A stretch of 35,236 nucleotides of DNA, taken from Planoprotostelium fungivorum. Lineage: Eukaryota; Evosea; Variosea; Cavosteliida; Cavosteliaceae. Made by a program: the position numbers and the translations under genes. Shown in pieces: positions 1 to 35,236 of this stretch. Position 1 is the stretch's first letter, and the number at the start of each line of letters is the position of its first letter. The stretch is from contig MDYQ01000260.1 of NCBI GenBank assembly GCA_003024175.1, forward strand, positions 1 through 35,236, given 5' to 3'. The notes under the pieces are model-generated. The model was not told the origin of the DNA. It saw nothing but the letters and a program-made list of their open reading frames with translations, and searched no databases.

Positions 1-90
1 GGAACCGTGTCAAGCACAACCACCGGAGCTGCTGTTTCCCTTCTTCCTCTGGCCTCCTTGGCTCTCGTGTCTCTCTCCTTGCTCGCGTAG
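1..90 (+). CDS. C-terminus of GPI-anchored surface protein (partial, 5' end outside window)
   Basis: The reading frame is open from the window edge to TAG at 88-90. The last 28 residues begin T-V-S-S-T-T-T-G-A-A and continue as an uninterrupted hydrophobic run rich in L, A, V and S that ends exactly at the stop. This is the usual layout of a GPI-attachment signal: small residues at the cleavage (omega) site, a short spacer, then a hydrophobic tail with nothing after it. The protein would be cleaved in the ER and anchored at the cell surface or wall. An AATAAA at 117-122 can serve as its polyadenylation signal. It runs convergently toward the HMG-box gene. The protein's main domain is not visible, so its function is unknown; the call rests on one short peptide. 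Confidence 0.55.
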   Translation, partial: GTVSSTTTGAAVSLLPLASLALVSLSLLA

Positions 91-383
91 AGATGATCGG
101 ATTCTTGCGTTCGAGAATAAAATATGATGCTCATTTATTTTATTAATTTTTTCAGCGCGAAAGAATGGTTGATCAGAATGAGCTACGACTGATGCCATGA
201 ATGTTCTCAGGTCTACCTTTCTGAGAGGATCATCATCAAACAATGTATGAGCGGACGCGTCAGACCTCGTTCGACACTTGAAATGATTAGTAGACGTATA
301 GCTGGTAAGGATGTGAGTAGAAGGTCGGGAGAATAAATGATAAAAGATGAGAGGAAAAAAAAGTCAAGCTCACACATTTATAT

Positions 384-1148
384 TTACATTGCAAGTATGT
401 CTGTCCACTCCGTCTTCTCCTCTATAAATCTACAGTTTTCGTATCGTAACTCCCACGAGATGACATTCTGGTCATTATCTCCTTCTGAATAAAATTCAGA
501 ATCAAGTAAGAGAGATTCGATGAAGTCGTACGGTTCCTCCGTAGACTCATACGGAGTGGAAATATCTTCTATCGTGCTCGTGTGTGGATCATGATCAGAG
601 AGATCATCACCTAGACTGAACTGGGAGGATGGTGTGGAGGGCAGCGAGGTGTTGGGGGTCAGAGTGGAAGAGACTGTCGTAAACGAGTCGATGTCCTCCT
701 CAGAGTACCCTGTGATCTTTCTCTCGGTCATGTAGCCTTCGATGAAATCCAATGTCTCCTGGTAGTCCGGCTCTGGGGGGCTCGGTCCAGTGTGGAGGGC
801 TGCTTCTAGTAACTCCAGCGCCGACTGTGGTCTCACACTCTCGGGTTGGATGGTGTCGGCGTCCTCCGTGATGGGAATGGGATTGATTTTGAAGTAGTTG
901 GTCTTGATTCGGTCTGCTCGTTCTGTGAACCTCTTCTTCTCGTCTGGGTGGAGAGTCTTCCAAGTTGTTCCTAAGAGCTTGGCTAATTGTGCATTGTTGA
1001 GGTGTGGATTCTGTCTCTTTAATGCAGACCTTGTCGCGTTACTGAAAAGAAGAAAACTGTTCGGGGGTCTGGCCACCCTTATCCTCTTCTTACCTAGCTC
1101 TGCATCCGAGTCACTCAGCGGATTGCTCCTCTTCATTGAACTCTTCAT
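384..1148 (-). CDS. MATA-type HMG-box transcription factor
   Basis: A single intronless ORF of 254 aa. An HMG box occupies roughly residues 24-87. It opens with R-V-A-R-P-P-N-S-F-L-L-F, has the L-A-K-L-L-G-T-T-W-K core and the K-K-R-F-T-E-R-A-D helix 3, which is the sequence-specific MATA/SOX-like subtype used by fungal mating-type and sex-locus regulators. A basic stretch (G-K-K-R-I-R) precedes the box and could be a nuclear signal. The rest is Ser/Thr/Asp/Glu-rich with an acidic tail, as in activation domains. The protein should bind DNA in the nucleus. The gene follows the Pns1-like gene on the same strand and converges with the GPI-protein gene. MATA-HMG proteins are often multi-copy in early fungi, so a mating-type role is possible but unproven. 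Confidence 0.85.
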   Translation of the reverse strand: MKSSMKRSNPLSDSDAELGKKRIRVARPPNSFLLFSNATRSALKRQNPHLNNAQLAKLLGTTWKTLHPDEKKRFTERADRIKTNYFKINPIPITEDADTIQPESVRPQSALELLEAALHTGPSPPEPDYQETLDFIEGYMTERKITGYSEEDIDSFTTVSSTLTPNTSLPSTPSSQFSLGDDLSDHDPHTSTIEDISTPYESTEEPYDFIESLLLDSEFYSEGDNDQNVISWELRYENCRFIEEKTEWTDILAM

Positions 1149-1369
1149 CTGTGAGCTTCTTCGTGTGGGTGTGTGTAACGTTGTTGGGTATAATAAAGAC
1201 CTTCCTCCTTGGGTGTCCTCCTCTTTTTGAATTTGTCAGGCTCTTTCTTCAAAGGACCTTTCGTTGAATGTGCGTGGAAGAAAGTTCCGGAATCGTTCCA
1301 CAAGAGGAATAAAAGGAAAGAGAAACCTCTACAATGAGAAGATGATGAAGAGTAAGAGGGTGTATTAAC

Positions 1370-3310
1370 TCAATATCTTCTGAAGAGATCGACCTGACCC
1401 GAGTACCTCTCCTGGAACTGTGCGTAGAGTTCCGGGCTGTTTCTGGCGAGAACGGCAGGATCCATGACGAATGACACGAAGATGGTCGTGATGCCACTCT
1501 CCAAGACCTCCATGACCTGAGAGCACAGGAGAAGTCCGATCTGTTCAGCGTGAGAGGAGAACGCGGGCGTAGAGGAGAGCTCACCAAGAAGCCAAAGATG
1601 ATCATGGCCGCGAGGGCATTGGAGTTCTGAGGGAAGAGGATGACGGAGAGGATGGCACCGAGGACACCGTTGAGGACACCACCCAAGAGAGTGCTCATGC
1701 CCAGGACCGTTCCGGTGATGTCATCGTTGACCACGGCCATGAATCCGTGCTGCTCGAACATGGCCCACGTGTCCTTCGCCGCCTCGCAATACGATTTTCC
1801 GTAGATAGCAATCTGTCTTCGTCAGGGCGCAAATTGTCTCTCAGCCTCACCTGAGCGAAGGCGTACTTGTTGAAGTAGCGAACGAGGTTCTCGATGATGG
1901 AGAGGAAGCAATCGATGATGGCGTTGAGGATGTCGTGGTTCCCTCTCAATCCTCTCAGGAGGGTCCTGATGGTCTGCAGTGCCGCGATGATGAGACTGCC
2001 CAGGCAGATGGAGCCGAATGAAGTTCCAGTGGCCCTCTTGAATGAGGCGATGGATGGATTAACGGGCATAGCTTCGGTTCCGTAGAGGAAGTACCAGGAG
2101 GCGACGGTGCCGCTGGTGGTGACGTGCACGACGTTCTTAATGACTGGAGAGTGTCATTCCAGTGGAGGGGTGGATCCTCACCTTGGGCGACCCAGTAGAA
2201 AGAGAGGAGGAGGAAGACATAGAGGACGTAGACTGCTGTGGGTCTCTCGATGTGGCTCTGTCCGTTTTGATCTACGACCTTGGAAGATAAACCCTGGTCA
2301 TTGTTAATCCCAGACGATGATAAGGAAAGGGAAGAAGAGAGAAGACAAAAGAGAAAGAGTGGAGATAAGAAGAGAGAAGCACCTGATCCAAGAAGATGAC
2401 GGTAAGCACCCAGAGGACGATCCAAAAGATGGAGACGAAGAGGGAGAGATAAGAGATGACAGTCATACCGTGGTATCCTGTAGAGAATCAGAGAGGAGCG
2501 CTCATGGATGAACGAGAGGACGGATAGAGGGTAGAGGGTGACTCACGCTGAGTGACACCAGAGACAGTTCTGAGCATGAGACTCGCGAAAGGGATCCTGC
2601 TCCTCCAAGAGAACCAAAGGAAGATGTGCAACAGAGCTGCCAGGAGGGTGATGATACCTCCGAAGATCTGCATTGTTCAGAACTCTATGATGATGAAGAT
2701 GAGACGACTTACGGAGTGGATGGAGAAGAGGTAGATGGAGAAGGCAATCCACAGGGCAGAGCTCAGAACGAGGGTGATGTAGATGATCTGAGTGGCGAAG
2801 GTCTTGATGACCTGCAGCCAAACTCCCGCAAAGATGAGGGAGAGAGCGACCATGCCCATGCAGGAGAAGAGGAGCTTTCTCAGATTAGTGGAATCGGAGT
2901 AAGGCTCATTGTTTCCGGTGTTGTTTCCAGTGTTCGTGGTCTGTTGGTCCTTCATGACGGCTTGATACTTGACGGCGGCGAAGACAAAGAGGACAAAGAA
3001 GGCCACCTGTGGACGTGAGTATTTTGACGTACAATAAACGACTGACCAGGTGAACTAGGAAAACAATAGTCCAGGCGGGATCGCGACGATGATTCGCCGG
3101 CTTGAACTTGTCATCTGAATTACGATTGTTCTGAGGAAGTAATTAGATAGAGCCTCAAGTTCTTCGACTTACGATGGGGGACTCTTCATCGTAGTGTCTT
3201 GCGTACGTCTGATGCATCACAGGAGCCGGCTGATTTGTGTACTCGCGACCATCTTGTCCTGTATAGTATTCTGCATAATCAGAACCTTGGTGTTCGCTTT
3301 CCTTTCCCAT
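1370..3310 (-). CDS. Pns1/CTL (SLC44) choline-transporter-like membrane protein
   Basis: Eight introns can be placed, giving about 500 aa. The N-terminus is hydrophilic and Tyr/Gln-rich (starts M-G-K-E-S-E-H-Q-G), as in yeast Pns1. About ten hydrophobic segments follow. Two family blocks are unmistakable: the V-I-K-N-V-V-H-V-T-T-S-G-T-V-A-S-W-Y-F segment, and S-F-K-R-A-T-G-T-S-F-G-S-I-C-L-G-S-L. A later block reads I-A-I-Y-G-K-S-Y-C-E-A-A-K-D-T-W followed by V-N-D-D-I-T. SLC44/CTL proteins sit in the plasma or organelle membrane and are linked to choline or ethanolamine transport, though yeast Pns1 has no confirmed substrate. The gene is divergent from the VIT-like gene with 268 bp between starts. 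Its fifth intron (89 bp here) holds the only arm-to-arm length difference. Confidence 0.9.
2332..2379 (-). repeat. 35-bp repeat unit in left-arm Pns1-like intron, one full unit plus 13 bp
   Basis: Left-arm counterpart of 32823-32905 with one unit fewer: full unit 2345-2379 and partial unit 2332-2344. Typical of slippage in a simple pyrimidine tract. Confidence 0.95.
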
Positions 3311-3578
3311 GCTGTGCGTGTTGTGTCGTCCCTGCTTTTTTGATGTTGTATTTTTCTTGGGGGATCGCTAAACTTATTTGAATTTCTGATCTTTCCACAA
3401 ACATCACACCATGCTCTCTCGAAGAAAGGCCACACAACCAGAGTGAGACGACAAATCGTCAGATAAATTTCAGTTGTCCTATCTTGTTTCGGGCAGTGAT
3501 ACTCATCATCTGTTAGACACAATGATGCGCCCGACCTGGTTGGTATGTCTGATGCAGCATTAGCATCCAAAGGAGAAG
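3311..3578. promoter_or_regulatory. Divergent intergenic region between Pns1-like and VIT-like genes
   Basis: 268 bp between the two start codons and the only place for their promoters. An open frame crosses it on the minus strand but overlaps the Pns1-like start and resembles nothing known. Mirror: 31624-31891. Confidence 0.45.
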
Positions 3579-4514
3579 ATGGACACAGAGAAGTTCACGT
3601 GCAGTAGGTTGATTATCTCTTTGATGACTGAGATTTTAAGGGGTGGGAAATATTTGAAGAGCATCATCTATGGTGGTCTGGATGGTATCGCTTCCACTTT
3701 TGTCGCAGGTATGGACTCGATCCACAACCGAGTTAACACCCACATAGTGGCTGCGGTCGCCGGGCAGAGTAACATCAGCTTGAGTGTGGCCCTTGTCATG
3801 GGTTTAGCCAAACTATTTGCTGGAGGCTTTTCGATGGGTGTGGGTGACTGGTTGGCGACCGACGCTGAGTTGTCCCTCGCCAAGGCCGAGAGAGCGAGAG
3901 AAGCTTGGGAGTTTGAGAACTACCCCGAAGGAGAGATCGAAGAGATGGTAGACATCTACGTCAAGAAGGGTGATGATCACGATCCATGCGATTCGAACCA
4001 ACAGACAGTAGGGCTCTCTGAACCAGCGGCGAGAAGGATCATGGTCATATTATCGAAATACCCCCAAGCTTTCATCGACATCATGTTAGCTGAAGAGATC
4101 GGCATCTCTACAGACATCTTCCAACAGAAGCCATACATGCACGGTCTGGTAGGTATCAAAGGAGAACGAACGCGTTGACCGAGGCAGGTCAACTTTGGTT
4201 CCTTCATGGGGTGGGGAATTATTCCGCTCCTGGTTTACATCATCTTCGTTGCCATCAGCAAGACCCACCCCGTCGCACAGGAGATCGTCTTTGGTGTCTG
4301 TGCTGCCGTCACCGCCGTCACATTGTTCATCATGGGTGTCATCAAGGTGGGTGATTCATCATCGACCTTGTTGATGATCCCGCAGGGCCGTCTGACTGGC
4401 ACAAATGTCATCACCTCCGGAATCATCACTCTTTTCTTTGGTGCTCTCAGCGCCGGAATTGGCTACGGTGTCGTCATCGCCCTCTACAAGATCACCGGCC
4501 TCGCCATCGATTGA
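3579..4514 (+). CDS. VIT1/CCC1-family vacuolar iron/manganese transporter
   Basis: Splicing out 4149-4187 and 4347-4385 gives about 285 aa. The first membrane segment holds the family block I-I-Y-G-G-L-D-G-I-A-S-T-F, followed by G-L-A-K-L-F-A-G-G-F-S-M-G-V-G-D-W-L. Next comes the charged cytosolic metal-binding helix region rich in Glu (A-E-R-A-R-E-A-W-E-F-E-N-Y-P-E-G-E-I-E-E). Three C-terminal membrane segments end in G-R-L-T-G-T-N-V-I-T-S-G-I-I-T and G-A-L-S-A-G-I-G-Y. Known members move Fe2+ or Mn2+ from the cytosol into the vacuole in exchange for protons. The second intron is a stopless 39 nt, so retention would add 13 residues; the family alignment favours removal (K then G-R-L-T-G). 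The ATG at 3579 keeps the frame open; a further upstream exon is not excluded. Confidence 0.92.
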
Positions 4515-4596
4515 TCGACCATAAAAACTATTTCGAAGGACGAGTTCGATCTGTTGATTACTATTTTATTATTATGATACATAGAATGATCTTTTA

Positions 4597-5629
4597 TTAC
4601 ACTCTCGTCTTGGGCTGGACGGCCTCCTGTCTCCTCTCCTTCTCTTCCTTCCTCTGGTCAATCCTCTTCGCCGTCTCGCCTGCGTTGTTCTCTTCCTCTC
4701 TCGTTTTCTCTGCATCCTCTTCTTCGATCGTCGCCTCGTTGTGTCTTCCCTTCACTTCGTCAGAGGGATCCAGACCGATCACCTGAAGGAGATCAGACAC
4801 AGTATCTCTCGCTCGTCTCACCTTGCACGCCTCCAGGTACACTCTCTCCGCCACGATGGCCCTCACTTCGTTCCTTTCTTTTCCCTTCAGTCCTCCCTCT
4901 ATCTTTCCCTGCCTCTTCTCTCCCTCTTTGGTCAGAACGCAGAAGAAGGCGTGGGGCTCCAAATCTTCGACGCCTGATGAGGTCAGATGTAGAAGTAGAG
5001 GGAGGCTGAAGATACCAACCTTCTGTCTTTGCGAAGCCGGTGACACCGACACCCACTTCAGCCTGCTCTCCAAACATCTGTGACGGTGGGTTACGTTCCC
5101 TCCTTTGTCATCTCACGTTGAGGATACCCTGGGCCATCTCACAGGCCACACGCGGAGAGACACAGTCCACTTCGCCTGCATGTTCTTTGTCGACATCCAA
5201 GAGTTTGGCCTTGTGTTGGAGAGTGTAGACCGTCATCCCTCCCAAGAAGAACGAACCTAGACGGATCAGCTCTCGAATTTTCTTCATCTTTACCAGCTGC
5301 ATTGTGGGAAGCGAAAAGATCTGCCAACTTTCCTGCAGTAAGAGATTCGGCCAAAACTAGTTTCTTGATGGGTGCCTCTTCTTCTTCAGCATCATACTGG
5401 CGTTTGTGTGGATGAGTGGCCTGATTTGTGTTATCGTGTGTGCCGTATCTCCTCTCCTCCGTCTTCTGCTTCTCCTAATGTATGTCAATCGAGAGCACGT
5501 AGAGTGGAGCATTACGTTGATCTTCTGTCCCTTGGTCTGACCGGTCATCTTCTGTTGGTAAGCCTTCTGTATGTGAAACGTCCGTGCGTGATGATGTCTG
5601 AAAGCAATGAGTGACCGCGTGGACAGCAT
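4597..5629 (-). CDS. CinA C-terminal domain / PncC-type nicotinamide-nucleotide amidase-like protein
   Basis: About 276 aa after removing five introns of about 37-46 bp. The domain begins with the family motif L-A-E-S-L-T-A-G-K-L (bacterial form A-E-S-x-T-G-G; the Ser is the expected nucleophile). It continues S-F-F-L-G-G-M-T-V-Y-T-L-Q-H-K, then V-S-P-R-V-A-C-E-M-A, and V-G-V-G-V-T-G-F-A, all colinear with CinA-C. PncC enzymes deamidate NMN to nicotinic acid mononucleotide; fungal homologues are little studied. The start chosen gives an N-terminus M-L-S-T-R-S-L-I-A-F-R-H-H-H-A-R-T-F, basic and hydroxylated like a mitochondrial presequence; an ATG at 5722 is an alternative. The C-terminus is a charged Glu/Lys/Arg helix beyond the domain. 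The stop codon overlaps an AATAAA. Confidence 0.85.
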
Positions 5630-5702
5630 GGGGTGATGTGTTGTTGTTTGTAGAAGATTCACCTTTTTTGTGATCAACCGTGGCTGGACTCACACCACCG
5701 TG

Positions 5703-5710
5703 TCACGTGA
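5703..5710. promoter_or_regulatory. TCACGTGA E-box upstream of CinA-like gene
   Basis: The same 8-bp palindrome as in the 11281-11396 promoter, 73 bp before the chosen CinA-like ATG (5629). This supports the downstream start, since with ATG 5722 the site would fall inside coding sequence. Mirror: 29492-29499. Confidence 0.4.
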
Positions 5711-5793
5711 AGGTGTTGCCATGAAAATTCGGACGCGTAAGACATCCCGCAAAGCGTTTTGTCGTTCTGGGATACACATCTACATCTCTACAT

Positions 5794-8700
5794 TTATTCG
5801 CTGTCACTCTGCCCTCTCGTCTCTGGTGGTGGGGCGAATAGGGCTGCCATCATCGCGTCTTCATCTTCTTCCATCTGTGCTCGTCAGTCTCCTCTCTCTC
5901 CCTCTGTTCACCTCATCCATTCCTCTCCTCTCCTCCCTCCTCTCCTCTCTTGTCTCCTCCTCTGACTCAGATTCCCTTTCCTCTCTGATCTCCTCTCTGA
6001 TCTGTTCCACTTGTATCTCCTCTTCTCCACCTCCCTTCTCCGTTCCATCTTCCTCCGCGTCTCTGTTCACTTCCGTCTCGATCTCATCTTCTGAAGATGA
6101 CTCTATCCTGTTCTTCTTCCTCTTGTTGGGGGAAGGTGTGAGAGCGGTCGGTTGATAGGATTCCTGGAGGAAGAGGTCGTCATCTGTCTGCGTGAGTGCT
6201 CATCGACACCTTCAACCACCTTCATCTTGGAGCGTGATGGGTTTCATCTTCAGTCTCGGTCTCTGAACGGACACCGCCTCCTCTCCTCCCTTCGTCCCTT
6301 CTTCACGTTCCTCCTCCTGTTGTTCGAGTCAGATGTCATCTACATCTCCGAGTGCACCTGTTGCTGTCGCTCCAGCAGCGCGATGGCCTCTTCGTCCGCC
6401 TCCGTGAATCCTTCGAGGGGATCGAGAGCTCCTCCCTCCCCTTCGACTCCTTTCTTCCTGCACACGTCACCCATCACCATCCATACTCTCACTCACCTCT
6501 TCGATCGAGGAGGACGAGGTGTCCCCACGGATGGGGTTGGATCGGGGGGAAGTGGTGGGAGGTAGACGGCCCTTTCGCTCTTCTCGGGAAACTCACCTCC
6601 ACTCAAGAGGGTGGAGCCGTTGACGATCCCTCCTTCCATGCTGCTCGCCTCCGTGATGACCTGAACTCCTTCAGAGGAAGACGTTTAGGCTCCTCACCGT
6701 CCTCCATACGGCATCAGAGGACAAGACTTTGGACTTCCCCACGATGAAGAGGTGTCTGTGCGGGTCAGAAAGAGGAAGGGCACGATGGTTACCTCTTGGC
6801 TCGGGTCAAAGCAACGTTCAGACGGTTGGGAGAGTCACTGAAACCGAGAGCGACGGTCCTGGAGCAGGCCAGCAGGATGACTTCTTTCTCCGCCCCTTGG
6901 AAGGCATCGACGGTGGAGACCTAGAGGGTTCATCTTCGAGAGAGAGGAAGGTTACCTGGATGGAACGGAGAAGGGAGGAAGATTTCGGAGCTTTGATCGT
7001 CTTTCCCTTCTTCGAGGCATCGACGTGGATCATCTCTTCTTCTTCCTCCCTGTCGTATCGACTGTTCGCCTCTAGGATATCATGTGGTATCTCCATGTTG
7101 GTGATGGCTTGTATCAGATGATACATCTGGGCTTTATCTGCTGTATCTCAATCCTCTGTATGGGTGGTGTGGTGACTCACACAGGGCTATGACCCCGATT
7201 TGATTGCCTCTCACACCCTTCTTCAATAGCAGTCGGATGAGGTGACAGACTAATTTGACTTCGTAATCGTTATGATAGCTGCCGAATCGATCCCTCGTCT
7301 GCACGAAGGTGAGTTTGAATCAGCCATACTGAGCCAAACTGACCTCTTCACCCCTGTCATCGTTGCAGAAGAGAAGGGATGGAATGCTCTCTTCTAACGG
7401 CTTCCTGTCCTCCTCGCTGACTCCATCCTCTAATCTTCCTTCGTAGAACATGACGTTGGCTATCCGACTGAACTTGGGATGGCACTGAGAGGGGTGAGCT
7501 CAGTCTCTGATGAGAACTCACTCTGTACTGTCTCCTCAGAAGAATGGGAGGATGATCCAGGGAGGCGAGTCTAACGAAGAGGGTCCTCCCTATACCCTCT
7601 CTCATGGTGGCATCATCCGTGAAGATGGACAAGGTGGGAGGAAGTTGTAGAGGATCTCCCACACCCAACATTCGGTGACAGCCGAAGCGGTTCATGGGGA
7701 TGAGACTGAGGGGCTCTAGCATCTGAGAGCACTCATCTAGAAAGATGATGGGAAACACGTGATCCGTCAACACGGGGAAGGGTGAAGCGGCACATGTGAC
7801 ACCCACCACGGGAACCTGATGCATCAGAATCGGTGGATCATCCATCATCTCACTTCCTTCAATCGTTCCAGTCTATCGCTCATCTGACCTCCCTTGATCT
7901 CGTCGATATTCTTCTTGATATCCTTCCATTCCTTCACACTGATGCCTGGTTCGTTGAGCATCGAATTGAGGTCCCTCAGTGCTTCTTTCTCCTCTCCAGA
8001 TTGCAGTGTATAATCGAGTATGGGCTTGGCGATCTTCTTGATGGATCCCACCCTAATGAAGTCTGTGAACTGCTGATCCAGCAGACCCAGCAGGACTCTG
8101 TCCACGGCAGTGTTGGTGGAAGAGCACACGAGTATGCGGATCTCTCGATTTTCCTCCATCTCAGCAATGCGGCAGATGAACACAATGAGTACCACCAGCA
8201 GATAGCTCTTTCCCGAGCCAAATACACCATGGACGAGGAGAATGGGATCCCCGGAAGGAGATGAATCATCGCTGCAGTGAAACCACACCAGGAGAGAGTT
8301 GAGGACTCTGCTCTCATCAGATGGAGATGTTCTCGTGTGCTCTTTACCTCTCTTGATCTCGATTCAGGGAGTACTTATCGCTCGTCTCGTCGGCCAGTAC
8401 CTGATACTTCAATTTCGAATGTGTATGCACCAGATTCACCTGCAGGTCGTTCCTGGTCATCTTCAGGGAGAGGGGATCCGATCGAACCGATCTGATTCTC
8501 CCCCTAGGAACTCCACCGGGTGCACCCAGTAGATGCTCCAGGATGGGTAATTTATCGCTGTCCGGCTGCACGCTGGAGAGATTGTCCAACATGGAGAATT
8601 CAGTACTCAGATTGGGTCCGTGGATGACATACAATCCCTGTTTCGGGGGTATGAAACGATCGTTGATGGGTGTGATCTGATGTCAAGACTGAGAGATGTT

Positions 8701-11280: not shown

Positions 11281-11396
11281 GCTTCGAAGTAAGATGATTA
11301 ACACTGTCTGTTTCCGGGAAATGTTAGGTCACGTGATTGTATGGTCTACAACCCATATGATTCACTGGGTTTTCTCCAGAACAAAGATGCATCATC
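11281..11396. promoter_or_regulatory. 116-bp divergent promoter with TCACGTGA site
   Basis: Lies between the start codons of the ZGRF1-like gene (-) and the small membrane-protein gene (+), so it must hold both promoters. TCACGTGA at 11329-11336 is a perfect E-box palindrome of the type bound by fungal Cbf1-like or other bHLH factors. No clear TATA box. Mirror: 23806-23921. Confidence 0.5.
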
Positions 11397-12097
11397 TATA
11401 TACGATATGCTGTCTACTGTTGTTCATTTATAAATGTCACTCCGGTGAGTTTCGACGGGTGATGGGATCCAACTGATTATGGATAGAACCCATGTATTTT
11501 CATGGGTTCCTGAATCAGTCTAATCCTGTTATATTGTCAACGAGGACACCCACAGATATGAGATACACTATTTCGGCTCACAGTAGAATCGATGTGTTGT
11601 TTCTGTCACACACCAACTATGAAAAATATACAAACCAGTCAGGTAACGTTTAATAGCTATTTTCGCTTAACAAGATGAAGATTACACCGTCATACCCGAG
11701 TTGACGAAGAAGAACGTTTACTTCGCTGAGGTGGGAACGATCTACTCGATGATTCGCTGCGATGTAACCTTCAAAGGTATTGAATCGAGCCGTCGGAACA
11801 CCGGAAGGAGAGACGAACAACACGATCTTTTGTATCATCAAGAACGGTAGAGCCAAGCCGGTGGAATTCAGGTACCTGATCAATTTTGACATCGACGATC
11901 GACGGCTCCCAAAATGGGCTATCTTTCTCCTAGGAGCAGGTAAAGTGATCAATTGAATCGTCATCTGAATCAGATTCCAGGAGCAGTCTTCTTGTCACTG
12001 TGTGTATTGGGAAGTATCATCTACTATTTCGTTTCCAAATGTAGAGACAGGAGATCTTATTCGCTAGTTGGTGACGGAACTGTGATCATCTCATAAA
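11397..12097 (+). CDS. Small type I membrane protein, unknown family
   Basis: Four introns (11459-11518, 11643-11674, 11777-11807, 11940-11980) give about 190 aa. The N-terminus M-H-H-L-Y-T-I-C-C-L-L-L-F-I-Y is a signal peptide. The lumenal part of about 120 aa is beta-strand-like, with possible N-glycosylation sites N-Q-S and N-N-T and a few Cys. One membrane helix (about 23 residues from A-I-F-L-L-G-A-G-A) is followed by a stop-transfer K-C-R-D-R-R and a short tail carrying Y-S-L-V, a YxxPhi endosomal/vacuolar sorting motif. I do not recognise the family. The topology and tail resemble cargo receptors or lysosomal membrane proteins, an inference from layout alone. The stop codon lies 21 bp from the end of near-perfect arm identity. 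The first intron's donor was chosen to keep the frame and is the least certain. Confidence 0.65.
11486..11509 (+). other. Perfect 9-bp hairpin inside an intron
   Basis: GAACCCATG, a 6-nt loop TATTTT, then CATGGGTTC, all within intron 11459-11518 of the small membrane-protein gene. The stem brings the splice sites closer together. The mirrored copy is at 23693-23716. Confidence 0.7.
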
Positions 12098-12118
12098 TTT
12101 GGTGGAGACAAGATGTAT

Positions 12119-12265
12119 CATGAATAGTCATTCGAAGAAAATGACCGATATGTCATCTTTTATTCAATCTGAAGGTGGAAAATGATCTGTCCCACTCACA
12201 ATAGGATCTTTGGTGTTACTAGACCACACGAACGACAGCCAAGCCAGAGAGCCGCTTAGTGTAGC
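12119..12265 (+). repeat. Diverged inner extension of the inverted repeat, left side
   Basis: Continues the homology with 22878-23083 over 116 alignable bases, with SNVs at 12168 and 12220 and a 31-bp block (12185-12215) absent from the right side. Beyond 12265 the two sides are unrelated. Confidence 0.9.
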
Positions 12266-12383
12266 TATATATTTCAATCGAAGGTAGAATTTCGTGATGA
12301 TTTATAAAGTAAGGATGAAGCAAATCCTCTCAACTATCGGCCTATCTCACTTCTAGATACTGTCTGGACCGGACGTCGTCCGA

Positions 12384-23083: not shown

Positions 23084-23104
23084 ATACATCTTGTCTCCAC
23101 CAAA

Positions 23105-23805: not shown

Positions 23806-23921
23806 GATGATGCATCTTTGTTCTGGAGAAAACCCAGTGAATCATATGGGTTGTAGACCATACAATCACGTGACCTAACATTTCCCGGAAACAGACAGTG
23901 TTAATCATCTTACTTCGAAGC

Positions 23922-26900
23922 ATGATTAGGAGGTTGAAACCAAATGGCGTGACGAGACAGAGCGAATTGAAAGTAATACACACGGAGAACAATATCAAGA
24001 GATTCACCTGCTTGTATACGAAGCACAAGACACAGAAATCCAAGACATGGCAGGATGGAATTTTCAGTTTTAACTCATCCAATCGAAAAGTGGGTATAGA
24101 AGTGAAATTATGCCTGATTTTTGAAGGGCACACTGTATGACCCAACAGGACGAATGGTCATCGACTCTAAATTCTTACAACCTGCAGAGTATCCAGAGGC
24201 AAGTAATCTGTATCATTTTTTTCTGAATGATTTTAGATTGGATCAGATCTCGAACTTGAACTTCACTTGGTGACAATTGAAGGAGAGAATGACGTTGGAT
24301 CCGTCCCAAAGAGTGTTGTATCGCCAGCTACTCCTGTTTCTGCGCCCTCCGTACCGAGATTGGCCAAGTGTGTTGCAATGGATGACCTCTCTTTGACTCG
24401 CTGCCAGATTTCGGCCACCATCCAAAAGACAGCCTTCTTTAGAAGACAGACACAGAAATCAAGACGAACACCTGAGATCCATTCGTCTCGACACGGGTGG
24501 GTTCATCTGGTGCGATGTATTCTGAATAAAATGAAGCATCTGATACCCCAGAAGATAAACCACAGGTGACCTAGATGAGTGGGAAATATCCATAAACGAT
24601 TGATAGGTACAGACGGTACTGGGAGTGAAACAGTACTCAGATGCATCTGAGTTTGCGAACTTCAAGAGAAAAGTAATCAAAGCACCTGAGCCAGAACTAA
24701 CTGCCTCAATTACTCCTCAGAAGGTATGCAAAGCACGTGATCCGTGTGTGATCATTGTGGCAGCCGACTCTTGAGGACTCTGATCTGTTTGAGAGTGAAG
24801 AGTCATCAAAAAGGATGATTCCAAAGCGAAGAAAAGTCGAGGAAGATTCTCCTGAGCAAGCAGATCGAGATCGGTTCTTCGAGCGACCTACAATGGAACA
24901 AGGTAACCGCTGGCTTCTCGAAATTTTTGCTCACTGAATCACAGAATTAGAAGAGGCTGGTCTGGATACTCTCTTCTCATCCACTGTGAAGATTCCAAAG
25001 ACAAATGTAACTATTGATCGCAGAGTCGTATCTACAGCCTCCGATTTTCAGAAATCGCCGGCGAAGAAATATCCTGAGATCAAATTACCACCAGGTCCTA
25101 AGATGTCCATGGGACTGATGAACAAAGAGGACGATGAGGATACACTTCCCTTCGAGCGTCTTACCAGAAACAAGTGAGAAAGTGATGCAGGGGCAAACTC
25201 ACCTAGTACAGATCACAGAATGGAGCCAAACCACAAGTACAAAGTCCCGGAATTTTGGATGGATATTTCGAGGAAGATGATCATGAGGACGATGTACCGA
25301 TCCGCATTTCACAAGTGAAAGGAAGGAACATAACCCTCGAAGAAGATGACGTCCCTCTCTTGTCCACATGGAAGAAACTTCACAACCCCACAAAGAGGAT
25401 TTTGGTCGATCGGGGGGGACAAAAACATTCTCATACGAAGAAAGAAGGAGACGATGCACCCATCCGTATACCGATCGAGTCGAAGGGATCGAGCCTGTTC
25501 GGTAGGGCTAAAAACGGGTGATGTCCTCGATCTGGTGCGGTAGTTGATCAAGAACAGTGTGGTCACGAAGCCCTTCAAGCCACCCATTGTCTCTCAAGCT
25601 TACAGCCCTGACTCTGCCTCTCTGACTTTCCCTGGTTACACTGATGCTACGACGATACGAAATAAGAACAATGGAAGACTTCCCCACCACAAAGTCAAGA
25701 TACCCACTTCCTTTGTGGACACCGTTCAGTACCGAACCATCTGGATGACGGGACTCATTGAAGACATCAACCTTCAATTGTTGAAGCTTGCGGTAGATCT
25801 CTACGGAGTATTTCCTCAGATTAGTCAGATCATGGGAGGAGCCACTGCTATCTCCTGCCCCCACGGTAAAGCAGTGCTCAGAACTGTGAATAAGCCTACC
25901 CCGAATAAAGGTGAGAACGATGCTGAACAGTCTGAGCTAAATTCCTCCAGGGAGGCAATTCTATTGCTGTCCGGGGAAAGAGAACAACAAATGTAAACTG
26001 TTCAAGTGGGTGGATGAGTTGAAAGCAGATGGAATCATACAAGAGGACCCTCTCATTGTACCCGATGTAAAGATCACACCGGGAAATGCCAATACCCTCA
26101 GATCCTCGGGGGTCAAGATCTACTTAGACTGTGAGATCGTACGAAGGTGATCTCCTCGATAGATCCCACCATCATCTCTAACACGTGCAAAGTAAGAACG
26201 AGAGCCAGCAATCGATAAGAAGCTGCTTCAAGAGAATGCAAGAGGGTGCACCCATGAATGCACGATCAGGAGCGGTTTATCTGAAACTCAGCGAAGGATT
26301 TAAGGAGAAGTCCACCGAGTCCGTACCCTCTCATCAATCACGACTAAATCAATCCAGCTATGCCAAAGACGATCTGTGGATTGTGTCCACCACACCTACT
26401 TTTACGGTCAAGAGCTCGAGCGACCAGATCTATCTCGTCCGCAGTGCCTTTCACGGTCCTGCCCGCTCTGGCCTTCTCGAGGTATCTTATCGTTATCCGC
26501 AAACATCTCTCAGTCTTGACATCAGATCACACCCATCAACGATCGTTTCATACCCCCGAAACAGGGATTGTATGTCATCCACGGACCCAATCTGAGTACT
26601 GAATTCTCCATGTTGGACAATCTCTCCAGCGTGCAGCCGGACAGCGATAAATTACCCATCCTGGAGCATCTACTGGGTGCACCCGGTGGAGTTCCTAGGG
26701 GGAGAATCAGATCGGTTCGATCGGATCCCCTCTCCCTGAAGATGACCAGGAACGACCTGCAGGTGAATCTGGTGCATACACATTCGAAATTGAAGTATCA
26801 GGTACTGGCCGACGAGACGAGCGATAAGTACTCCCTGAATCGAGATCAAGAGAGGTAAAGAGCACACGAGAACATCTCCATCTGATGAGAGCAGAGTCCT

Positions 26901-29408
26901 CAACTCTCTCCTGGTGTGGTTTCACTGCAGCGATGATTCATCTCCTTCCGGGGATCCCATTCTCCTCGTCCATGGTGTATTTGGCTCGGGAAAGAGCTAT
27001 CTGCTGGTGGTACTCATTGTGTTCATCTGCCGCATTGCTGAGATGGAGGAAAATCGAGAGATCCGCATACTCGTGTGCTCTTCCACCAACACTGCCGTGG
27101 ACAGAGTCCTGCTGGGTCTGCTGGATCAGCAGTTCACAGACTTCATTAGGGTGGGATCCATCAAGAAGATCGCCAAGCCCATACTCGATTATACACTGCA
27201 ATCTGGAGAGGAGAAAGAAGCACTGAGGGACCTCAATTCGATGCTCAACGAACCAGGCATCAGTGTGAAGGAATGGAAGGATATCAAGAAGAATATCGAC
27301 GAGATCAAGGGAGGTCAGATGAGCGATAGACTGGAACGATTGAAGGAAGTGAGATGATGGATGATCCACCGATTCTGATGCATCAGGTTCCCGTGGTGGG
27401 TGTCACATGTGCCGCTTCACCCTTCCCCGTGTTGACGGATCACGTGTTTCCCATCATCTTTCTAGATGAGTGCTCTCAGATGCTAGAGCCCCTCAGTCTC
27501 ATCCCCATGAACCGCTTCGGCTGTCACCGAATGTTGGGTGTGGGAGATCCTCTACAACTTCCTCCCACCTTGTCCATCTTCACGGATGATGCCACCATGA
27601 GAGAGGGTATAGGGAGGACCCTCTTCGTTAGACTCGCCTCCCTGGATCATCCTCCCATTCTTCTGAGGAGACAGTACAGAGTGAGTTCTCATCAGAGACT
27701 GAGCTCACCCCTCTCAGTGCCATCCCAAGTTCAGTCGGATAGCCAACGTCATGTTCTACGAAGGAAGATTAGAGGATGGAGTCAGCGAGGAGGACAGGAA
27801 GCCGTTAGAAGAGAGCATTCCATCCCTTCTCTTCTGCAACGATGACAGGGGTGAAGAGGTCAGTTTGGCTCAGTATGGCTGATTCAAACTCACCTTCGTG
27901 CAGACGAGGGATCGATTCGGCAGCTATCATAACGATTACGAAGTCAAATTAGTCTGTCACCTCATCCGACTGCTATTGAAGAAGGGTGTGAGAGGCAATC
28001 AAATCGGGGTCATAGCCCTGTGTGAGTCACCACACCACCCATACAGAGGATTGAGATACAGCAGATAAAGCCCAGATGTATCATCTGATACAAGCCATCA
28101 CCAACATGGAGATACCACATGATATCCTAGAGGCGAACAGTCGATACGACAGGGAGGAAGAAGAAGAGATGATCCACGTCGATGCCTCGAAGAAGGGAAA
28201 GACGATCAAAGCTCCGAAATCTTCCTCCCTTCTCCGTTCCATCCAGGTAACCTTCCTCTCTCTCGAAGATGAACCCTCTAGGTCTCCACCGTCGATGCCT
28301 TCCAAGGGGCGGAGAAAGAAGTCATCCTGCTGGCCTGCTCCAGGACCGTCGCTCTCGGTTTCAGTGACTCTCCCAACCGTCTGAACGTTGCTTTGACCCG
28401 AGCCAAGAGGTAACCATCGTGCCCTTCCTCTTTCTGACCCGCACAGACACCTCTTCATCGTGGGGAAGTCCAAAGTCTTGTCCTCTGATGCCGTATGGAG
28501 GACGGTGAGGAGCCTAAACGTCTTCCTCTGAAGGAGTTCAGGTCATCACGGAGGCGAGCAGCATGGAAGGAGGGATCGTCAACGGCTCCACCCTCTTGAG
28601 TGGAGGTGAGTTTCCCGAGAAGAGCGAAAGGGCCGTCTACCTCCCACCACTTCCCCCCGATCCAACCCCATCCGTGGGGACACCTCGTCCTCCTCGATCG
28701 AAGAGGTGAGTGAGAGTATGGATGGTGATGGGTGACGTGTGCAGGAAGAAAGGAGTCGAAGGGGAGGGAGGAGCTCTCGATCCCCTCGAAGGATTCACGG
28801 AGGCGGACGAAGAGGCCATCGCGCTGCTGGAGCGACAGCAACAGGTGCACTCGGAGATGTAGATGACATCTGACTCGAACAACAGGAGGAGGAACGTGAA
28901 GAAGGGACGAAGGGAGGAGAGGAGGCGGTGTCCGTTCAGAGACCGAGACTGAAGATGAAACCCATCACGCTCCAAGATGAAGGTGGTTGAAGGTGTCGAT
29001 GAGCACTCACGCAGACAGATGACGACCTCTTCCTCCAGGAATCCTATCAACCGACCGCTCTCACACCTTCCCCCAACAAGAGGAAGAAGAACAGGATAGA
29101 GTCATCTTCAGAAGATGAGATCGAGACGGAAGTGAACAGAGACGCGGAGGAAGATGGAACGGAGAAGGGAGGTGGAGAAGAGGAGATACAAGTGGAACAG
29201 ATCAGAGAGGAGATCAGAGAGGAAAGGGAATCTGAGTCAGAGGAGGAGACAAGAGAGGAGAGGAGGGAGGAGAGGAGAGGAATGGATGAGGTGAACAGAG
29301 GGAGAGAGAGGAGACTGACGAGCACAGATGGAAGAAGATGAAGACGCGATGATGGCAGCCCTATTCGCCCCACCACCAGAGACGAGAGGGCAGAGTGACA
29401 GCGAATAA
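23922..29408 (+). CDS. ZGRF1-like superfamily 1 DNA helicase, right-arm copy
   Basis: Mirror of the 5794-11280 gene. Landmarks: DUF2439-like domain about 24002-24290, including a GC-AG intron beginning right after the P-E codons near 24198; GRF zinc finger about 25855-26015; Walker A 26974-26997; D-E-C-S-Q 27465-27479; motif III about 27544-27570; motif VI about 28383-28410; acidic tail 29040-29280. The stop TAA at 29406-29408 lies inside an AATAAA. The ATG at 23922 was chosen because it precedes the DUF2439 domain in frame. Confidence 0.9.
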
Positions 29409-29572
29409 ATGTAGAGATGTAGATGTGTATCCCAGAACGACAAAACGCTTTGCGGGATGTCTTACGCGTCCGAATTTTCATGGCAACACCTTCACGTGAC
29501 ACGGTGGTGTGAGTCCAGCCACGGTTGATCACAAAAAAGGTGAATCTTCTACAAACAACAACACATCACCCC

Positions 29573-30605
29573 ATGCTGTCCACGCGGTCACTCATTGCTT
29601 TCAGACATCATCACGCACGGACGTTTCACATACAGAAGGCTTACCAACAGAAGATGACCGGTCAGACCAAGGGACAGAAGATCAACGTAATGCTCCACTC
29701 TACGTGCTCTCGATTGACATACATTAGGAGAAGCAGAAGACGGAGGAGAGGAGATACGGCACACACGATAACACAAATCAGGCCACTCATCCACACAAAC
29801 GCCAGTATGATGCTGAAGAAGAAGAGGCACCCATCAAGAAACTAGTTTTGGCCGAATCTCTTACTGCAGGAAAGTTGGCAGATCTTTTCGCTTCCCACAA
29901 TGCAGCTGGTAAAGATGAAGAAAATTCGAGAGCTGATCCGTCTAGGTTCGTTCTTCTTGGGAGGGATGACGGTCTACACTCTCCAACACAAGGCCAAACT
30001 CTTGGATGTCGACAAAGAACATGCAGGCGAAGTGGACTGTGTCTCTCCGCGTGTGGCCTGTGAGATGGCCCAGGGTATCCTCAACGTGAGATGACAAAGG
30101 AGGGAACGTAACCCACCGTCACAGATGTTTGGAGAGCAGGCTGAAGTGGGTGTCGGTGTCACCGGCTTCGCAAAGACAGAAGGTTGGTATCTTCAGCCTC
30201 CCTCTACTTCTACATCTGACCTCATCAGGCGTCGAAGATTTGGAGCCCCACGCCTTCTTCTGCGTTCTGACCAAAGAGGGAGAGAAGAGGCAGGGAAAGA
30301 TAGAGGGAGGACTGAAGGGAAAAGAAAGGAACGAAGTGAGGGCCATCGTGGCGGAGAGAGTGTACCTGGAGGCGTGCAAGGTGAGACGAGCGAGAGATAC
30401 TGTGTCTGATCTCCTTCAGGTGATCGGTCTGGATCCCTCTGACGAAGTGAAGGGAAGACACAACGAGGCGACGATCGAAGAAGAGGATGCAGAGAAAACG
30501 AGAGAGGAAGAGAACAACGCAGGCGAGACGGCGAAGAGGATTGACCAGAGGAAGGAAGAGAAGGAGAGGAGACAGGAGGCCGTCCAGCCCAAGACGAGAG
30601 TGTAA
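29573..30605 (+). CDS. CinA C-terminal domain / PncC-like protein, right-arm copy
   Basis: Identical mirror of the 4597-5629 gene. One intron is easily checked here: 29909-29945 (37 bp) restores N-A-A-G-S-F-F-L-G-G, the family's expected reading. The stop TAA at 30603-30605 runs into AATAAA at 30604-30609. The alternative upstream ATG is at 29480. Confidence 0.85.
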
Positions 30606-30687
30606 TAAAAGATCATTCTATGTATCATAATAATAAAATAGTAATCAACAGATCGAACTCGTCCTTCGAAATAGTTTTTATGGTCGA

Positions 30688-31623
30688 TCAATCGATGGCG
30701 AGGCCGGTGATCTTGTAGAGGGCGATGACGACACCGTAGCCAATTCCGGCGCTGAGAGCACCAAAGAAAAGAGTGATGATTCCGGAGGTGATGACATTTG
30801 TGCCAGTCAGACGGCCCTGCGGGATCATCAACAAGGTCGATGATGAATCACCCACCTTGATGACACCCATGATGAACAATGTGACGGCGGTGACGGCAGC
30901 ACAGACACCAAAGACGATCTCCTGTGCGACGGGGTGGGTCTTGCTGATGGCAACGAAGATGATGTAAACCAGGAGCGGAATAATTCCCCACCCCATGAAG
31001 GAACCAAAGTTGACCTGCCTCGGTCAACGCGTTCGTTCTCCTTTGATACCTACCAGACCGTGCATGTATGGCTTCTGTTGGAAGATGTCTGTAGAGATGC
31101 CGATCTCTTCAGCTAACATGATGTCGATGAAAGCTTGGGGGTATTTCGATAATATGACCATGATCCTTCTCGCCGCTGGTTCAGAGAGCCCTACTGTCTG
31201 TTGGTTCGAATCGCATGGATCGTGATCATCACCCTTCTTGACGTAGATGTCTACCATCTCTTCGATCTCTCCTTCGGGGTAGTTCTCAAACTCCCAAGCT
31301 TCTCTCGCTCTCTCGGCCTTGGCGAGGGACAACTCAGCGTCGGTCGCCAACCAGTCACCCACACCCATCGAAAAGCCTCCAGCAAATAGTTTGGCTAAAC
31401 CCATGACAAGGGCCACACTCAAGCTGATGTTACTCTGCCCGGCGACCGCAGCCACTATGTGGGTGTTAACTCGGTTGTGGATCGAGTCCATACCTGCGAC
31501 AAAAGTGGAAGCGATACCATCCAGACCACCATAGATGATGCTCTTCAAATATTTCCCACCCCTTAAAATCTCAGTCATCAAAGAGATAATCAACCTACTG
31601 CACGTGAACTTCTCTGTGTCCAT
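30688..31623 (-). CDS. VIT1/CCC1-family vacuolar iron/manganese transporter, right-arm copy
   Basis: Identical mirror of the 3579-4514 gene with the same two 39-bp introns. It converges on the CinA-like gene with an 82-bp gap that contains A/T-rich polyadenylation-like sequences for both strands. Confidence 0.92.
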
Positions 31624-31891
31624 CTTCTCCTTTGGATGCTAATGCTGCATCAGACATACCAACCAGGTCGGGCGCATCATTGTGTCTAACAGATGATGAG
31701 TATCACTGCCCGAAACAAGATAGGACAACTGAAATTTATCTGACGATTTGTCGTCTCACTCTGGTTGTGTGGCCTTTCTTCGAGAGAGCATGGTGTGATG
31801 TTTGTGGAAAGATCAGAAATTCAAATAAGTTTAGCGATCCCCCAAGAAAAATACAACATCAAAAAAGCAGGGACGACACAACACGCACAGC

Positions 31892-33867
31892 ATGGGAAAG
31901 GAAAGCGAACACCAAGGTTCTGATTATGCAGAATACTATACAGGACAAGATGGTCGCGAGTACACAAATCAGCCGGCTCCTGTGATGCATCAGACGTACG
32001 CAAGACACTACGATGAAGAGTCCCCCATCGTAAGTCGAAGAACTTGAGGCTCTATCTAATTACTTCCTCAGAACAATCGTAATTCAGATGACAAGTTCAA
32101 GCCGGCGAATCATCGTCGCGATCCCGCCTGGACTATTGTTTTCCTAGTTCACCTGGTCAGTCGTTTATTGTACGTCAAAATACTCACGTCCACAGGTGGC
32201 CTTCTTTGTCCTCTTTGTCTTCGCCGCCGTCAAGTATCAAGCCGTCATGAAGGACCAACAGACCACGAACACTGGAAACAACACCGGAAACAATGAGCCT
32301 TACTCCGATTCCACTAATCTGAGAAAGCTCCTCTTCTCCTGCATGGGCATGGTCGCTCTCTCCCTCATCTTTGCGGGAGTTTGGCTGCAGGTCATCAAGA
32401 CCTTCGCCACTCAGATCATCTACATCACCCTCGTTCTGAGCTCTGCCCTGTGGATTGCCTTCTCCATCTACCTCTTCTCCATCCACTCCGTAAGTCGTCT
32501 CATCTTCATCATCATAGAGTTCTGAACAATGCAGATCTTCGGAGGTATCATCACCCTCCTGGCAGCTCTGTTGCACATCTTCCTTTGGTTCTCTTGGAGG
32601 AGCAGGATCCCTTTCGCGAGTCTCATGCTCAGAACTGTCTCTGGTGTCACTCAGCGTGAGTCACCCTCTACCCTCTATCCGTCCTCTCGTTCATCCATGA
32701 GCGCTCCTCTCTGATTCTCTACAGGATACCACGGTATGACTGTCATCTCTTATCTCTCCCTCTTCGTCTCCATCTTTTGGATCGTCCTCTGGGTGCTTAC
32801 CGTCATCTTCTTGGATCAGGTGCTTCTCTCTTCTTATTTCCACTCTTTCTCTTTTGTCTTCTCTCTTCTTATTTCCACTCTTTCTCTTTTGTCTTCTCTC
32901 TTCTTCCCTTTCCTTATCATCGACTGGGATTAACAATGACCAGGGTTTATCTTCCAAGGTCGTAGATCAGAACGGACAGAGCCACATCGAGAGACCCACA
33001 GCAGTCTACGTCCTCTATGTCTTCCTCCTCCTCTCTTTCTACTGGGTCGCCCAAGGTGAGGATCCACCCCTCCACTGGAATGACACTCTCCAGTCATTAA
33101 GAACGTCGTGCACGTCACCACCAGCGGCACCGTCGCCTCCTGGTACTTCCTCTACGGAACCGAAGCTATGCCCGTTAATCCATCCATCGCCTCATTCAAG
33201 AGGGCCACTGGAACTTCATTCGGCTCCATCTGCCTGGGCAGTCTCATCATCGCGGCACTGCAGACCATCAGGACCCTCCTGAGAGGATTGAGAGGGAACC
33301 ACGACATCCTCAACGCCATCATCGATTGCTTCCTCTCCATCATCGAGAACCTCGTTCGCTACTTCAACAAGTACGCCTTCGCTCAGGTGAGGCTGAGAGA
33401 CAATTTGCGCCCTGACGAAGACAGATTGCTATCTACGGAAAATCGTATTGCGAGGCGGCGAAGGACACGTGGGCCATGTTCGAGCAGCACGGATTCATGG
33501 CCGTGGTCAACGATGACATCACCGGAACGGTCCTGGGCATGAGCACTCTCTTGGGTGGTGTCCTCAACGGTGTCCTCGGTGCCATCCTCTCCGTCATCCT
33601 CTTCCCTCAGAACTCCAATGCCCTCGCGGCCATGATCATCTTTGGCTTCTTGGTGAGCTCTCCTCTACGCCCGCGTTCTCCTCTCACGCTGAACAGATCG
33701 GACTTCTCCTGTGCTCTCAGGTCATGGAGGTCTTGGAGAGTGGCATCACGACCATCTTCGTGTCATTCGTCATGGATCCTGCCGTTCTCGCCAGAAACAG
33801 CCCGGAACTCTACGCACAGTTCCAGGAGAGGTACTCGGGTCAGGTCGATCTCTTCAGAAGATATTGA
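31892..33867 (+). CDS. Pns1/CTL (SLC44) choline-transporter-like protein, right-arm copy
   Basis: Same protein as the 1370-3310 copy. Intron 5 spans 32820-32943 (124 bp) and contains an extra 35-bp unit. A synonymous change (Gln CAG at 32970 here, CAA in the left copy) lies in the exon just after that intron, and an intronic SNV lies at 32923. None of these alters the predicted protein. Confidence 0.9.
32823..32905 (+). repeat. 35-bp tandem repeat in Pns1-like intron, two full units plus 13 bp
   Basis: Pyrimidine-rich unit at 32823-32857 and 32858-32892, with a partial third copy to 32905. It lies wholly inside intron 32820-32943, so it does not change the protein. Confidence 0.95.
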
Positions 33868-34088
33868 GTTAATACACCCTCTTACTCTTCATCATCTTCT
33901 CATTGTAGAGGTTTCTCTTTCCTTTTATTCCTCTTGTGGAACGATTCCGGAACTTTCTTCCACGCACATTCAACGAAAGGTCCTTTGAAGAAAGAGCCTG
34001 ACAAATTCAAAAAGAGGAGGACACCCAAGGAGGAAGGTCTTTATTATACCCAACAACGTTACACACACCCACACGAAGAAGCTCACAG

Positions 34089-34853
34089 ATGAAGAGTTCA
34101 ATGAAGAGGAGCAATCCGCTGAGTGACTCGGATGCAGAGCTAGGTAAGAAGAGGATAAGGGTGGCCAGACCCCCGAACAGTTTTCTTCTTTTCAGTAACG
34201 CGACAAGGTCTGCATTAAAGAGACAGAATCCACACCTCAACAATGCACAATTAGCCAAGCTCTTAGGAACAACTTGGAAGACTCTCCACCCAGACGAGAA
34301 GAAGAGGTTCACAGAACGAGCAGACCGAATCAAGACCAACTACTTCAAAATCAATCCCATTCCCATCACGGAGGACGCCGACACCATCCAACCCGAGAGT
34401 GTGAGACCACAGTCGGCGCTGGAGTTACTAGAAGCAGCCCTCCACACTGGACCGAGCCCCCCAGAGCCGGACTACCAGGAGACATTGGATTTCATCGAAG
34501 GCTACATGACCGAGAGAAAGATCACAGGGTACTCTGAGGAGGACATCGACTCGTTTACGACAGTCTCTTCCACTCTGACCCCCAACACCTCGCTGCCCTC
34601 CACACCATCCTCCCAGTTCAGTCTAGGTGATGATCTCTCTGATCATGATCCACACACGAGCACGATAGAAGATATTTCCACTCCGTATGAGTCTACGGAG
34701 GAACCGTACGACTTCATCGAATCTCTCTTACTTGATTCTGAATTTTATTCAGAAGGAGATAATGACCAGAATGTCATCTCGTGGGAGTTACGATACGAAA
34801 ACTGTAGATTTATAGAGGAGAAGACGGAGTGGACAGACATACTTGCAATGTAA
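34089..34853 (+). CDS. MATA-type HMG-box transcription factor, right-arm copy
   Basis: Identical in protein sequence to the 384-1148 copy: 254 aa, no intron, HMG box in the N-terminal third and acidic tail. It lies 221 bp downstream of the Pns1-like gene on the same strand. Having identical HMG genes at both outer ends means the two arms do not encode alternative mating alleles at this gene. Confidence 0.85.
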   Translation: MKSSMKRSNPLSDSDAELGKKRIRVARPPNSFLLFSNATRSALKRQNPHLNNAQLAKLLGTTWKTLHPDEKKRFTERADRIKTNYFKINPIPITEDADTIQPESVRPQSALELLEAALHTGPSPPEPDYQETLDFIEGYMTERKITGYSEEDIDSFTTVSSTLTPNTSLPSTPSSQFSLGDDLSDHDPHTSTIEDISTPYESTEEPYDFIESLLLDSEFYSEGDNDQNVISWELRYENCRFIEEKTEWTDILAM

Positions 34854-35146
34854 ATATAAATGTGTGAGCTTGACTTTTTTTTCCTCTCATCTTTTATCAT
34901 TTATTCTCCCGACCTTCTACTCACATCCTTACCAGCTATACGTCTACTAATCATTTCAAGTGTCGAACGAGGTCTGACGCGTCCGCTCATACATTGTTTG
35001 ATGATGATCCTCTCAGAAAGGTAGACCTGAGAACATTCATGGCATCAGTCGTAGCTCATTCTGATCAACCATTCTTTCGCGCTGAAAAAATTAATAAAAT
35101 AAATGAGCATCATATTTTATTCTCGAACGCAAGAATCCGATCATCT

Positions 35147-35236
35147 CTACGCGAGCAAGGAGAGAGACACGAGAGCCAAGGAGGCCAGAGGAAGAAGGGA
35201 AACAGCAGCTCCGGTGGTTGTGCTTGACACGGTTCC
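35147..35236 (-). CDS. C-terminus of GPI-anchored surface protein, right-arm copy (partial)
   Basis: Exact mirror of the 1-90 fragment, also cut by the window edge at the same base. A Ser/Thr-rich, repetitive upstream body is typical of such proteins and would be a natural place for an assembly to break; that is an inference. Confidence 0.55.
   Translation of the reverse strand, partial: GTVSSTTTGAAVSLLPLASLALVSLSLLA

Follow-up and report, generated by a model that had tools for sequence, protein, structure and literature searches.

A near-perfect palindrome with gene-bearing arms in the genome assembly of Planoprotostelium fungivorum: structure, related loci and possible origins

Introduction

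The nearest known kinds of structure to the palindrome described here are those of the Y chromosome and those reported from Adineta vaga and Folsomia candida. Like the primate Y palindromes, it consists of long inverted arms that surround a spacer, carry genes and are nearly perfectly identical to each other (PMC7953838). It differs from them in its setting, as several contigs carry palindromes in a genome of 36.9 Mb and nothing points to sex linkage, and in what its identity can be taken to mean: arm-to-arm gene conversion operates in the primate Y palindromes, whereas conversion and assembly collapse look alike in the present case. The drafts of A. vaga and F. candida likewise contain several gene-bearing inverted duplications on single scaffolds, for which conversion was proposed and artefact suspected, and the Adineta palindromes were reportedly judged to be assembly errors in later work. 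One survey lists 19 palindromes for A. vaga and 16 for F. candida (PMC7953838). The blocks of F. candida show a wide range of synonymous divergence (PMC5490193), whereas the present arms differ little or not at all. Artificial palindromes created by erroneous scaffolding are a recognised problem (PMC7953838), and three palindromes of Botryllus were accepted after checks of read depth and duplicated genes (PMC12448946).

A further comparison is offered by fold-back inverted duplications, which, like this locus, combine a spacer of several kilobases and exact outer arms with an imperfect inverted repeat where arm and spacer meet. In yeast, single-stranded DNA folds back at inverted repeats that lie 30 kb apart, and the resulting instability is suppressed only by heterology above 25% (PMC10164571). 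The yeast events involve a dicentric chromosome and gross rearrangement (PMC10164571), whereas the second palindrome described below, on contig C446, lies within its contig.

Extent and arms of the palindrome

The window, that is, the whole stretch of DNA analysed, is the complete contig C214 of 35,236 bases, from an assembly of 36.86 Mb in 471 contigs. When the contig is aligned to its own reverse complement, positions 1-12118 pair with 35236-23084, a match far above chance that is interrupted by three substitutions (at 2267, 2314 and 2364 in left-arm coordinates) and one 35-bp gap corresponding to a tandem-repeat unit. Homology extends inward to 12265 and 22878, with further differences. The sequence-only reading had described a near-perfect palindrome with arms of about 12.1 kb in which base 1 pairs with base 35236, and the self-alignment agrees. 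The parts of the structure are as follows.

1..12118, plus strand: left arm of the inverted repeat, difference-free at 1-2266 and 2365-12118
12119..12265, plus strand: inner edge of the left arm, a homologue of 22878-22996 that carries substitutions and 31 bp found on the left only
12266..22877, no strand: spacer (centre) of 10.6 kb, from the alignment
12490..20815, plus strand: central block of 8326 bp without difference from contig C446, where it lies on the minus strand
20974..22355, no strand: part of the spacer with dispersed repeats, matching other contigs mostly at 75-99%
22878..23083, minus strand: inner edge of the right arm, holding an 88-bp insertion, from the alignment
22997..23084, no strand: dispersed element of 88 bp, confined to the right arm, flanked by TA on both sides
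23084..35236, minus strand: right arm, mirror of 1-12118, from the self-alignment
32823..32905, minus strand: tandem repeat of a 35-bp unit with 2.4 copies here in the right arm; the left-arm counterpart near 2331-2380 is shorter by one unit

As printed, the two arms can be told apart by their inner edges and by a patch near 2267-2400. Their differences total nine and are clustered in two short stretches, leaving difference-free tracts at 1-2266, which is the reverse complement of the last 2266 bases, and at 2365-12118 (about 9.75 kb); a gap of 9.75 kb arose from nine uniformly placed differences in about 1 of 100,000 simulations. Searches of the assembly with arm pieces 1-2000, 2501-7500 and 7501-12300 returned two copies, both on C214, and elsewhere two short matches only, at 71-72% (C374 and C29). 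The search with 1-2000 matched C214 alone and revealed no contig carrying a C214 flank. These copy counts, and that of the central block below, rest on query pieces of 2-5 kb, bases 2001-2500 having been covered by a longer query of 10-11 kb.

The locus as printed has the two near-identical inverted arms on one contig that characterise a Y-type palindrome, and it also ends at the same base of both arms, as does an assembly-collapsed inverted repeat. The contig starts and ends within an open frame, as read by eye, and the arms may extend beyond it. A linear, palindromic, telomere-capped minichromosome was rejected: the telomere repeats CCCTAAACCC and TTTAGGGTTT are absent from the window, including both of its ends, while contig C216 of the same assembly begins with such repeats. 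These repeats, the genome's size and its frames split by introns all point to a eukaryote. Neither an Rfam scan at the gathering threshold nor a tRNA scan of the window gave a match.

Inner edges and the one-sided element

The inner edges differ by an 88-bp element present only on the right, a 31-bp stretch present only on the left and three substitutions. The TA is duplicated around the element, the left arm having a single TA at 12116-12117, and the termini of the element are inverted over five of six bases. It matches at least 12 further places in 10 contigs at 93-94%, a lower bound taken from the 39 candidates scored out of 119. It looks like a small TA-inserting, MITE-like element that entered one of two inverted copies. 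Such a one-sided element would not be expected if the palindrome had been reprinted from one stretch, although for C214 alone, copying begun at an older imperfect inverted repeat could leave it as well. The TA-flanked insertion on one side of the inner edge, together with the patch at 2267-2400, disfavours a trivial hairpin or single-molecule chimera.

Genes and open frames

The Pfam matches below are to open frames and not to gene models.

1..90, plus strand: 3' end of an open frame crossing the contig start, mirrored at the contig end, translation read by eye
384..1235, minus strand: HMG-box open frame (PF00505, E 3.3e-18), mirror at 34002-34853 (plus)
1249..2153, minus strand: choline-transporter-like exons (PF04515), mirror at 33084-33988 (plus)
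3564..4514, plus strand: VIT1-like transporter exons (PF01988), mirror at 30688-31638 (minus)
7357..8363, minus strand: AAA_11 helicase-like exons (PF13086), mirror at 26839-27845 (plus)
13378..13578, plus strand: ECH_2 exon, E 8.6e-5, 22.6 bits and so below the cut-off of 27.2
18896..19431, plus strand: WD40-repeat exons, supported at family level, single exons below curated cut-offs

The frame at 1-90 encodes a hydrophobic tail, perhaps of the GPI type. Seven mirrored arm genes had been proposed, and Pfam bears this out for four families (HMG box, choline transporter, VIT1 and AAA_11). The 15 spacer frames scanned against Pfam yielded the ECH_2 exon, the WD40 exons and a chance-level TSP_1 match, with no mating-type gene among them. 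An Ehd3-like gene, also proposed for the spacer, comes down to one ECH_2 exon beneath the family cut-off, while a putative NEDD1-like gene holds at the level of the WD40 family, its single exons falling under the curated cut-offs. For a spacer frame of 337 residues, the protein search gave no scored homologue.

A gene block shared with a second palindrome

The centre had been taken to be unique, but its central block recurs inside the spacer of a palindrome on contig C446. Positions 12500-20810, searched as 12500-16700 and 16701-20810, are 100% identical to C446:64829-56519, and the block has exactly two listed places in the assembly, C214 and the minus strand of C446. Diverged homology to C446 flanks the block at 12292-12489 (198 bases) and, after an 88-base unaligned gap, at 20816-21306, and the two spacers share dispersed repeats. 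Neither at the DNA level nor after translation do the arms of C446 resemble those of C214. Given that the block is shared and the arms are dissimilar, one gene block sits in the spacers of two different palindromes.

The C446 palindrome lies in the middle of a contig of 123,150 bases, where 40619-55121 pairs with 87161-72388 around a spacer of 17.3 kb that contains the shared block at 56448-65031. Its difference-free tracts measure 9423 and 2590 bp and are separated by an indel-rich gap; along its inner edge identity is about 96% (95.9% across 1379 columns) and in its outer mirrored blocks 84-94%, after which homology ends. The remaining sequence at 1-35.9 kb and 93.3-123 kb contains no large mirrored match. 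These outer diverged blocks are at odds with a single recent fold-back and favour an older duplication that was homogenised later.

Further palindromes and shared contig termini

Matches to four protein families were listed across the assembly: kinases (at least 150 rows), mitochondrial carriers (at least 128), WD40 proteins (at least 150) and RRM proteins (at least 101). Since the listings score the best candidates, the numbers are lower bounds, and contig pairs were chosen by eye. Among the matches listed, inverted pairs with equal or near-equal scores on the same contig were found on C155, C116, C132, C254, C257 and C269. At the DNA level five of these six candidates are palindromic; C155 was rejected, as its inverted kinase pair is only 83% identical and represents paralogues.

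C116: 99.9% identity over 1001 bases, 100% over the last 296 of the contig
C132: 1457 identical bases inward from the contig end, then a diverged stretch to the limit of the compared sequence
C254: 100% identity in a 2000-base comparison and in the first 600 bases of the contig
C257: 100% identity over the first 700 bases
C269: 100% identity in a 1501-base comparison and in the final 300 bases of the contig, with a diverged inner edge

Other loci of the assembly show the same pattern as C214. The C254 palindrome is a mosaic in which stretches rich in differences alternate with tracts of 688, 1070 and at least 2210 bp that have none. Where both inner edges are visible, the spacers measure 2.1 kb (C254), 6.0 kb (C269), 10.6 kb (C214) and 17.3 kb (C446). 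In all five further palindromes a contig end falls inside an arm, which together with C214, where both ends do so, makes six of the seven palindromes examined, C446 being the exception. Mirrored ends are not a general habit of the assembly, as none of 20 other contigs has them (300 bases compared per end; 19 contigs informative, one with a masked start).

The same matches yielded 12 contig pairs with identical or near-identical family members, two of which share an exact terminus, the termini having been compared for all pairs but C167/C451. The last 300 bases of C1 and C80 are identical and end at the same base, and the first 200 bases of C295 and C470 are identical and start at the same base. 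In addition, C129 begins within a block that it shares with C234 (200 of 200 bases). Eight pairs gave no match or a partial one at one or two predicted termini, a miss being weak evidence given that indels shift the offsets: no shared terminus was seen for C376/C153, C78/C420, C55/C462, C120/C5, C406/C441 and C53/C130, whereas C141/C15 matched over 163 bp at 94.5% at one terminus and C367/C362 over 293 identical bases at the far end of C367. The exact shared termini suggest that the assembler prints one graph stretch in several contigs, up to a node. The suspicion that the mirrored ends of the window may betray an assembly product, raised from the sequence at the outset, was justified, as the window is a whole contig and other contig pairs share exact termini.

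Origin of the palindrome

We contend, with about even confidence, that C214 represents a real inverted segmental duplication that was homogenised by conversion or by assembly collapse and truncated at its mirrored ends. Two gene-bearing arms of at least 12.1 kb would lie in opposite orientation around the 10.6-kb spacer, and this arrangement would plausibly have arisen when a short imperfect inverted repeat, located where the inner edges now are, annealed to itself by fold-back. This process predicts just such a repeat next to the spacer and exact arms beyond it. The arms would have been kept or made identical by arm-to-arm copying (gene conversion), by the assembler merging the reads of both arms, or by both. 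The assembler would then have followed arm, spacer and arm, and, being unable to choose a flank, would have printed the collapsed arm twice, so that the mirrored ends would be those of the collapsed stretch and not of the molecule. If the arm stretch was reprinted in this way, the base-to-base mirror of C214 is explicable without biology. The inverted duplications are judged real given that the old outer blocks and indel-rich gap of C446 and the mosaic of C254 are unexpected from a fresh chimera or a reprint.

As the assembler may reprint stretches, arm identity is not by itself proof of gene conversion. Conversion would fit the way in which diverged zones enclose tracts without differences in C214, C446 and C254, and assembly collapse could give the same pattern; likewise, the mosaic identity tracts, with arm differences confined to edges and patches, are found as in Y-type palindromes and could also be produced by collapse. 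A broader proposal is that gene-bearing palindromes occur genome-wide as a counterpart of the Y palindromes, their arms and the block shared by C214 and C446 being kept identical by frequent arm-to-arm or ectopic gene conversion, and this we regard as unlikely. Several points weigh against the inverted duplication itself: the search with 1-2000 revealed no contig carrying a flank, erroneous scaffolding is known to create artificial palindromes (PMC7953838), the 9.75-kb identity may reflect collapse instead of conversion, an artefact also predicts palindromes that reach a contig end in six of seven cases, and the inner-edge differences of C214 could be those of an older imperfect inverted repeat at which an artefactual copy started.

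A less likely but serious rival is that the palindrome exists in no chromosome and is an assembly product, in which a single arm, carried once by each haplotype, was attached to the spacer on both of its sides. A spacer heterozygous for its orientation, or two haplotypes joined head to head, could for instance have led to this. Such an origin is consistent with a palindrome that fills its contig and is mirrored to the base, with the dozen near-identical pairs among the matches listed, two having an exactly shared terminus, with the contact between palindromes and contig ends in all but C446, and with the published caution on artificial palindromes (PMC7953838, PMC12448946). It accords poorly with the position of the C446 palindrome within its contig and its diverged outer mirrored blocks, and, apart from the two short matches at 71-72%, the three arm pieces of C214 were not found in other contigs. 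In addition, the substitutions (about 4-14%) and indels in the edge or inner stretches of C446, C254, C269 and C132 would appear to lie above the usual allelic difference.

Inverted chimeras from whole-genome amplification (multiple displacement amplification), or fold-back reads, could also have been built into contigs, and in amplified long-read data 25.6-38.5% of the matched reads of tardigrade mitochondria were palindromic (PMC13265396). The frequency with which palindromes reach a contig end fits this origin too, and copying begun at an older imperfect repeat would yield exact arms whose inner edges are diverged, the pattern of C214, C269 and C254. The arms of C214 differ at their inner edges and at 2267-2400, and while the former differences could predate a copy begun there, the latter patch is internal to the arms; neither this nor the diverged outer blocks of C446 and the indel-rich gap between its exact tracts is expected of a fresh copy, and we therefore consider the amplification origin improbable.

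The flip/flop mating-type loci of methylotrophic yeasts are flanked by inverted repeats, and the arms of C214 might by analogy recombine to flip the centre as a programmed invertible locus. The geometry, with long near-identical inverted arms around a gene-bearing spacer, is common to both, the invertible gene block of Ogataea and Komagataella spanning 19 kb in O. polymorpha (PMC5720833), and an HMG-box gene lies within the arms. No second spacer orientation was seen in the assembled sequence, the spacer matches in Pfam are the ECH_2 exon and the WD40 gene, not mating-type genes, and the same assembly has palindromes with other contents, all of which makes an invertible locus very improbable. 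The putative HMG-box gene, as a family match, gives no ground for a mating-type reading, and a link to sex chromosomes, also raised from the sequence, is without support.

Implications

If the palindromes are real, they provide a set of independent gene-bearing palindromes for measuring arm-to-arm copying, and genes at such loci could be prone to changes in copy number and orientation. If they are assembly products, some share of the genes in the assembly has been doubled or put in the wrong place, and contigs of this kind should be marked as suspect before anyone describes palindromes or expanded gene families on its basis.

Palindromes and dispersed sequence in other contigs

Another large palindrome was found mid-contig at C446:35915-93275 (loci L025-L028 and L013-L015), on a separate contig of the same assembly; its spacer includes the central block of the window, and its arms carry a gene that was named histidine-kinase-like by eye from the frames. 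Five more palindromes, each lying within one contig, were identified on C254, C257, C269, C132 and C116 (loci L074-L085 and L127-L132), and in all five a contig end falls within an arm.

Among the kinase matches listed, C65 and C190 each have many along their length, and C190 has one direct pair with equal scores and about 33 kb between its members.

The window also contains a dispersed element:
22997-23084, 88 bp long and flanked by TA on both sides
Sequences 93-94% identical to this element lie at a minimum of 12 further sites, spread over 10 contigs, as judged from the 39 of 119 candidates that were scored.

Shared contig ends

The start of C216 (L037) consists of CCCTAAA repeats, with an internal array and an adjoining stretch common to the start of C210 (L032); by sequence, these are a putative TTTAGGG-type telomere and subtelomere. 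C1 and C80 match each other at their ends (L101, L102), and C295 and C470 at their starts (L086, L087); in each pair the match runs to the very tip of both contigs, which falls on an identical base position, a sign that stretches were reused in the assembly.
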